A stretch of 64,000 nucleotides of DNA from Flavobacteriaceae bacterium (GTDB lineage Bacteria > Bacteroidota > Bacteroidia > Flavobacteriales > Flavobacteriaceae). This document shows, in pieces, positions 27,162 through 28,417 of the stretch. The translations under genes were made by a program, and so were the position numbers. The DNA lies in contig JAJUIC010000001.1 of the NCBI GenBank assembly GCA_029265595.1, positions 19,530 to 83,529 of the forward strand, read 5' to 3'. Numbering within the stretch: position 1 is the first letter of the stretch; each line of letters opens with the position of its first letter. The notes beneath the pieces are model-generated. The model was not told the origin of the DNA. It did not search any database and saw only the letters and a program-made list of their open reading frames with translations.

Positions 27162-27365
27162 TTACCTACTTTCCCGGATTATTTCCCGGTGACGAAATAA
27201 GGTGAGCTTTTTCTTAGCCGCTTTTAAACTGAGCACTTTCCTTCGTTTAGGAATCGATTCAGGGAATCGTTCCCCTGAGATCATTTTTGATAGCGTTTGT
27301 TTTTCTCTTGGTTGCAGTGCTGATAAATGAGGCTCTAACAAATTGTATAAGGTCCTGGCATCCAT
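27162..27365 (-). CDS. hypothetical small basic protein (67 aa)
   Basis: MDARTLYNLLEPHLSALQPREKQTLSKMISGERFPESIPKRRKVLSLKAAKKKLTLFRHREIIRESR; helical, plausible coding composition. Confidence 0.55.
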   Translation of the reverse strand: MDARTLYNLLEPHLSALQPREKQTLSKMISGERFPESIPKRRKVLSLKAAKKKLTLFRHREIIRESR

Positions 27366-27705: not shown

Positions 27706-27870
27706 TTATGCAAAAATCTGATTGTACAGACTTTGCAGCAATAAAACTACAGCGGTGGTAGATGCCAAAGCGATAAAGCCAAGCACAACAGCTATAATTG
27801 ATTTTTGAACAAAACTCATGTCCTGAGTTGATGAATGGATGTTCTGCCAAATAGTAGTAATTGTATTCAT
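27706..27870 (-). CDS. micro-protein with single TM segment, paralogue 1 (54 aa)
   Basis: Manual translation MNTITTIWQNIHSSTQDMSFVQKSIIAVVLGFIALASTTAVVLLLQSLYNQIFA; ungapped similarity to the ORF at 28268-28417. Confidence 0.7.
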   Translation of the reverse strand: MNTITTIWQNIHSSTQDMSFVQKSIIAVVLGFIALASTTAVVLLLQSLYNQIFA

Positions 27871-28267
27871 ATGCTATGCTTTTTTTCAGGCAGTAAGCCC
27901 TTCGGTTGATTTTATACAGCAATAATAAGAAGGAGAAGTCTTACGGAAAGAAAAAAAACGATGACTGGCTTCTTTATTCGTTAAAAAAGAATATCAGACG
28001 GTGGTATAAAGAAATGTCCTACAGCGCTTTAAGGTTTTTTAACAAGAGGAAGAGGAAACCAGGACAAAACGGAAGATTTTCCTCTCAAAGGTTGCGTTAA
28101 ATTAAGGAAAGACTTCCATGGGGAGTGTTCACTGAGCTACCTCAAGGCTACTATCCTTCACGGGCAAAGCTTTTTAAAAATGGAGTTATGGGTCAAAAAT
28201 TGGACATAACAATTCTGCATTCCTTCTTTGAGAATGTTCGAAATCCTGCTACACCCGCTCAACCTCA

Positions 28268-28417
28268 TTAGGCCAATCCCAGGATCAGAAACACAGTAGC
28301 GGCACCAGCTGCTAAGATAATGAATGCCAGTACGATACTGATAATGGCCCGTTGAAGCCAGTTAAACTCTACGATGTAGTCGAGATAGTTCCTCCAAATT
28401 TCCTGAAGCATATTCAT
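28268..28417 (-). CDS. micro-protein with single TM segment, paralogue 2 (49 aa)
   Basis: Manual translation MNMLQEIWRNYLDYIVEFNWLQRAIISIVLAFIILAAGAATVFLILGLA; 18 identical positions with paralogue 1 in ungapped alignment. Confidence 0.7.
   Translation of the reverse strand: MNMLQEIWRNYLDYIVEFNWLQRAIISIVLAFIILAAGAATVFLILGLA

Follow-up and report, generated by a model that had tools for sequence, protein, structure and literature searches.

A duplicated, genus-restricted family of single-transmembrane micro-proteins with a conserved helix face in Salinimicrobium

Two short open reading frames on the minus strand of the window, by which is meant the whole 64,000-nucleotide stretch of Flavobacteriaceae DNA analysed here, appear from their sequence to be genuine genes that are selectively maintained. 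They belong to a duplicated family of micro-proteins that seems, as far as sampled, to be confined to Salinimicrobium. The reading that we favour, with a probability of about 0.55, is that these two proteins, mp1 and mp2 (micro-protein copies 1 and 2), are inner-membrane members of this family in which one face of the transmembrane (TM) helix docks onto a partner or onto another copy of the protein, and that they serve as small regulators or accessory subunits. The family matches none of the curated families searched; its kind, that of small single-TM proteins, is already known.

The gene for mp1 occupies positions 27706 to 27870 on the minus strand (54 residues) and that for mp2 positions 28268 to 28417 on the same strand (49 residues, built on the same plan). 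Both are exact open reading frames, and their coordinates, strand and translations had been given correctly, to the letter, in a preliminary description of this DNA. The gapless likeness of the two proteins with 18 identities, also reported there, is recovered by BLASTP as 18 identical positions of 48, with an E-value of 2e-11 as a single comparison. The accompanying judgement that chance similarity was unlikely holds as well: in a test in which one partner was shuffled while the compositions of the N-terminal part and the TM part were kept separate, none of 200,000 shuffles matched the observed identity or BLOSUM score, and the likeness is therefore not due to shared hydrophobicity. A non-circular test is provided by a profile built from other species alone, with mp1 and mp2 left out. 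Run against the 1841 six-frame segments of the window, this profile picks out only mp1 (E 3.7e-11) and mp2 (E 6.5e-10), and the next-best segment reaches an E-value of 3.3.

A two-row profile of mp1 and mp2 finds the family in 12 of the 12 Salinimicrobium genomes sampled, and homologues with an intact frame and a fixed length of 47 residues are present in all 11 genomes besides the window genome; mp2 alone, as the first query against the genome contigs, found nothing. The family comprises two subtypes, A and B, in both of which start codon, length and stop do not vary. Averaged over 45 pairs, pN/pS is 0.17 for the A-type; over 28 pairs it is 0.35 for the B-type, and synonymous differences are near saturation in each. 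Because pN/pS is low while synonymous sites are close to saturated, the amino acids are what selection keeps, and purifying selection on both subtypes is, by this measure, strong. It might be argued from their very short length and from the lack of any curated family that these are chance open reading frames, or that the conservation is of a non-coding kind. However, the independent profile matches, the conserved start and length, and a pN/pS well under 1 where synonymous sites are almost saturated make this reading extremely improbable and effectively refute it. The proposal of a duplicated membrane micro-protein family in the preliminary description is thus upheld by frames kept in all 12 genomes, by low pN/pS with its synonymous bias, and by the prediction of an amphipathic helix and a TM helix. 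Of the outcomes that the same description had named as refuting, a lack of frame-preserving homologues and a lack of synonymous bias were put to the test, and in each case the result favours the genes.

An AlphaFold2 model of mp1, made from a 20-sequence alignment, has helices at residues 3-16 and 20-53 with a mean pLDDT of 88. Of the two, the N-terminal helix is moderately amphipathic, and a clear TM segment lies in the second, long helix. Both mp1 and mp2 carry the family columns I/L-W at 7-8, Q at 19, K/R at 20, I at 30 and A at 37. E44, near the C-terminal end of the TM helix, is found in every aligned A and B protein and is missing from mp1 and mp2; this loss is taken as divergence within the family, E44 being common rather than defining. 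Column by column, conservation in the TM helix rises and falls with a 100-degree period (p = 1e-4 when columns are shuffled), which defines a conserved face composed of I23, V26, I30, I33, A34, A37, V41 and E44 in family columns. The same face is obtained from B alone (p 0.0009) and from mp1 and mp2 alone (p 0.02), and A alone has the same phase without reaching significance (p 0.11). No 100-degree period was found in mean hydropathy or residue volume along the helix. The period in conservation is the pattern expected if one side of the TM helix packs against something specific, and it points, indirectly, to a candidate TM helix interface of the sort seen in AcrZ-, KdpF- and CydX-like subunits.

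Salinimicrobium, which we take to be a genus of Flavobacteriaceae, is the only place in which the family was seen in a Bacteroidota-wide search. The window genome, an incomplete assembly (75% complete, 210 contigs), is grouped with this genus and looks like the deepest Salinimicrobium lineage sampled, since the C-terminal part of its DnaE is only 65% identical to that of genome G007, against 74-84% for the other species. In the 236 other Flavobacteriaceae genera sampled, no family match at E 0.01 or better was found. As 237 genera were reached alike with 301 and with 241 genomes drawn, every genus of Flavobacteriaceae in the sampled collection was probably covered. A phylum-wide draw gave only weak matches of 21-33 residues to short TM segments inside longer open reading frames, and no relatives of the micro-proteins were found in the viral contigs and plasmids searched. 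Profile matches in other genera with E-values of 0.01-5 were scattered over larger proteins or over frames with stops and were rejected, as were two matches within the genus (G152, contig C12; G156, contig C49) that are not family members. Five evenly spaced matches in genome G079, the most promising cluster, were likewise set aside, as they lie on the antisense strand of a repeat protein. The repeat is a six-copy, 237-nt tandem array inside a surface-protein-like gene (L070; G079:C1, approximately 2382123-2383175), whose antisense frames resemble small TM open reading frames and give rise to false micro-protein matches.

Searches of Pfam, NCBIfam, PADLOC, PDB sequences, PDB folds and Rfam returned nothing convincing. 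A phage-encoded small membrane protein or holin was rejected, the best PHROGs match having an E-value of 0.044 and viral contigs giving no match. mp2 resembles subunit IV of CAA3-type cytochrome c oxidase (PF20814) weakly over 23 hydrophobic residues (E 0.045), but the score of 14.5 bits is far under the curated cut-off of 27.5 and mp1 has no such match, and the likeness was treated as chance. A literature search returned no paper joining 'Salinimicrobium' with 'small membrane protein'.

The two subtypes differ in genomic position. A-type proteins (47 residues, consensus MSALTNIWNNYTVEFSTTQKVIIAIVLGMIF...) occur in 10 Salinimicrobium genomes other than the window genome, where a MATE efflux gene lies divergently beside them and a companion gene follows downstream; next come genes for an SDR-like and an FAD oxidoreductase-like protein and a convergently oriented M3 peptidase gene. 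B-type proteins (47 residues, consensus MTVLTQLWKEQT.FS..QK...) occur in eight genomes, in seven of which the gene lies between dnaE and trxA on the strand opposite to both; the eighth genome also has B. On a short contig of genome G156 (L048; G156:C106:1-5617), a B-type gene is near trxA and an esterase-like gene stands where dnaE would be expected, which suggests a local rearrangement. B is a later insertion within the genus, as it is missing from the dnaE-trxA interval of the window genome (gap of 160 nt) and of G151 (123 nt), and as no small TM open reading frame like B lies between these genes where they adjoin in other genera (about 50-250 nt). The same region with B inserted is seen in other Salinimicrobium genomes (loci L097-L105).

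The family is duplicated, with A and B as its two products, and in the tree B forms one clade (98/100). mp1 and mp2 are more divergent than any A orthologue and group with A on long branches, with an internal grouping of 89/83. These long branches could mean relaxed selection in the window lineage, and the internal grouping could be a product of long-branch attraction, so that the window tandem pair is a possible rather than an established duplication of its own. In position, mp2 and mp1 correspond to the A-type, upstream of the companion gene and on the same strand.

The interval had been described as gene-poor, but it is less empty than this, because the companion, a conserved open reading frame for 67 residues, lies just downstream at 27162 to 27365 on the minus strand and forms the third gene of the block. 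The roughly 400 nt between mp1 and mp2 match no RNA family in Rfam. The companion, labelled DART for its MDART start, is a soluble, charged protein for which three helices are predicted (pLDDT 85) and for which no curated relatives were found. In 10 further Salinimicrobium genomes its orthologue, of 70-74 residues and with the MDART start in several species, stands directly downstream of the A-type gene (E 2.6e-32 or better). A second, more distant version of the companion is present in three species in unrelated surroundings (L159, G007:C24:537416-537619; L153; L154), the neighbours of the L153 copy looking phage-like.

On the minus strand of the window the order is mp2, mp1 and companion, with the M3 peptidase gene adjoining mp2 and nth lying past the companion. 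A-type gene and companion are adjacent in two settings, one with SDR and FAD oxidoreductase genes (most species) and the other with M3 peptidase and nth (the window genome). In the latter, the genes for SDR and FAD oxidoreductase lie on a separate contig, in the vicinity of uvrA and a sigma factor gene (L143; G000:C42:6000-18000), and this contig carries neither micro-protein nor companion, showing a rearrangement between lineages that left the SDR and FAD genes apart from the block. Micro-protein and companion have thus stayed together even though their surroundings changed.

In most A loci a hairpin directly follows the A stop codon, and its arms differ between loci yet remain complementary, suggesting that A is its own transcript; no convincing hairpin was found after the stop codons of mp1 and mp2. 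Of 20 upstream regions, 3 match a Bacteroidota-type promoter pattern where 1.6 would be expected, which is not clearly above chance, and promoter-like matches in the mp1/mp2 interval did not exceed the shuffled mean. Structure in the 5' regions is no more than mild (z about -1.5 to -1.7).

According to the reading that we favour, each protein would be L-shaped, with the N-terminal amphipathic helix and its I/L-W motif lying on the membrane surface, the invariant Q and K/R placed at the membrane boundary, and a single TM helix following and presumably inserted in the membrane. The conserved face of this helix would pack against a larger protein of the membrane or against a second molecule of the micro-protein, and the role may be regulatory or accessory in the manner of AcrZ, KdpF and CydX. 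It is the period of the conserved face that favours such a small regulator or accessory subunit, and the periodic face and the stable chromosomal positions, both read from sequence, seem more in keeping with an adaptor or regulatory subunit than with a toxin. Two features of mp1 and mp2 tell against this reading: both lack the E44 of the conserved face, and both have diverged further than any A orthologue. Joining a larger membrane complex is how most well-studied small membrane proteins act, AcrZ, KdpF and MgrB among them (PMC11539335). Membership of the AcrZ, KdpF or CydX families themselves was rejected, as no PDB chain was matched in sequence up to E 10 and no match above cut-off was found in Pfam or NCBIfam.

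AcrZ, the partner of the AcrB efflux pump of E. coli, is similar in having about 50 residues and a single TM helix, and it is reported to interact with the transmembrane part of its larger transporter (PMC7267776). The A-type gene is likewise divergent from an efflux gene in 10 Salinimicrobium genomes, which makes the MATE protein a tempting candidate partner. However, a search of the window genome (75% complete) did not detect the MATE gene, and B lies between housekeeping genes with no transporter adjoining; both points count against MATE as the partner, weigh against the docking reading and, together with the lack of any match of mp1 and mp2 to a solved chain, set the family apart from AcrZ. 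A linkage to MATE beyond the genus was also rejected, since the one other genus with a close MATE orthologue (73%) has no micro-protein, companion or SDR gene beside it. KdpF and CydX are comparable as small single-TM proteins working inside a membrane complex (PMC11539335; PMC4325964). In contrast to these, the Salinimicrobium family is encoded apart from any operon for a large complex and is found in one genus only; the cytochrome bd oxidase of which CydX is part occurs throughout Eubacteria (PMC4325964).

Several other functions have to be weighed against this. The proteins could be type I toxin-like peptides that disrupt membranes and are repressed by an antisense or trans-acting RNA, carried in tandem or dispersed copies. 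Their size, the single TM helix, the tandem duplication in the window genome and the second, dispersed copy in other species would all suit such peptides, of which TimP, a conserved small TM protein, is an example repressed by an sRNA (PMC7667032). TimP and DinQ are indeed alike in length and in having one TM helix, but genus-wide presence, low pN/pS, stable synteny and strong selection on a specific helix face exceed the needs of a non-specific pore former. Furthermore, the Rfam search and promoter scan gave no antisense or sRNA signal, the 5' regions show little structure, and no mobile-element relatives were found, on viral contigs or on plasmids. A type I toxin is thus possible but not favoured, and we consider it quite unlikely. 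A stress-induced, YohP-like effector that would settle in the membrane and adjust its physiology, or metabolism, with no single defined partner is suggested by the small size, the hydrophobic helix and the apparently independent transcription units indicated by the hairpin after the A stop in most species. YohP, a small bacterial membrane protein, is reported to cause metabolic silencing (PMC12719787). However, a generic effect on the membrane does not predict one conserved helix face, and the promoter signature could not be recognised above expectation; this explanation also appears unlikely.

The two-gene arrangement allows a special case of the favoured regulator or accessory subunit, not exclusive of it, in which the micro-protein anchors the soluble companion at the membrane. 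Adjacency in two different contexts and co-occurrence of the two genes in 11 of 12 genomes speak for it. Against it, B has no companion gene beside it, the hairpin between A and companion suggests separate transcripts, and the one genome with B alone is missing the companion, although that genome is 75% complete. Overall, we regard this anchoring role as doubtful.

As to origin, it may tentatively be proposed, with less confidence than in the docking role itself, that micro-protein and companion arose at the base of the genus, possibly de novo from non-coding sequence, that strong selection then acted on one helix face of the micro-protein, and that duplication followed at least once, giving A and B, with the window lineage adding a tandem pair. 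If this is true, the family would provide a natural example of a bacterial gene being born, one that is tractable and whose interaction surface is mapped.

Annotation readily overlooks short single-TM proteins, and what most of them do is unknown. In mp1 and mp2 a pair of them can be assigned to a family that is constrained, duplicated and restricted to one genus, and on which a candidate interaction face has been mapped. In addition, the family is carried by named species in public collections (among them S. catena, S. terrae and S. sediminis), which makes the questions of partner, deletion and gene birth directly testable.
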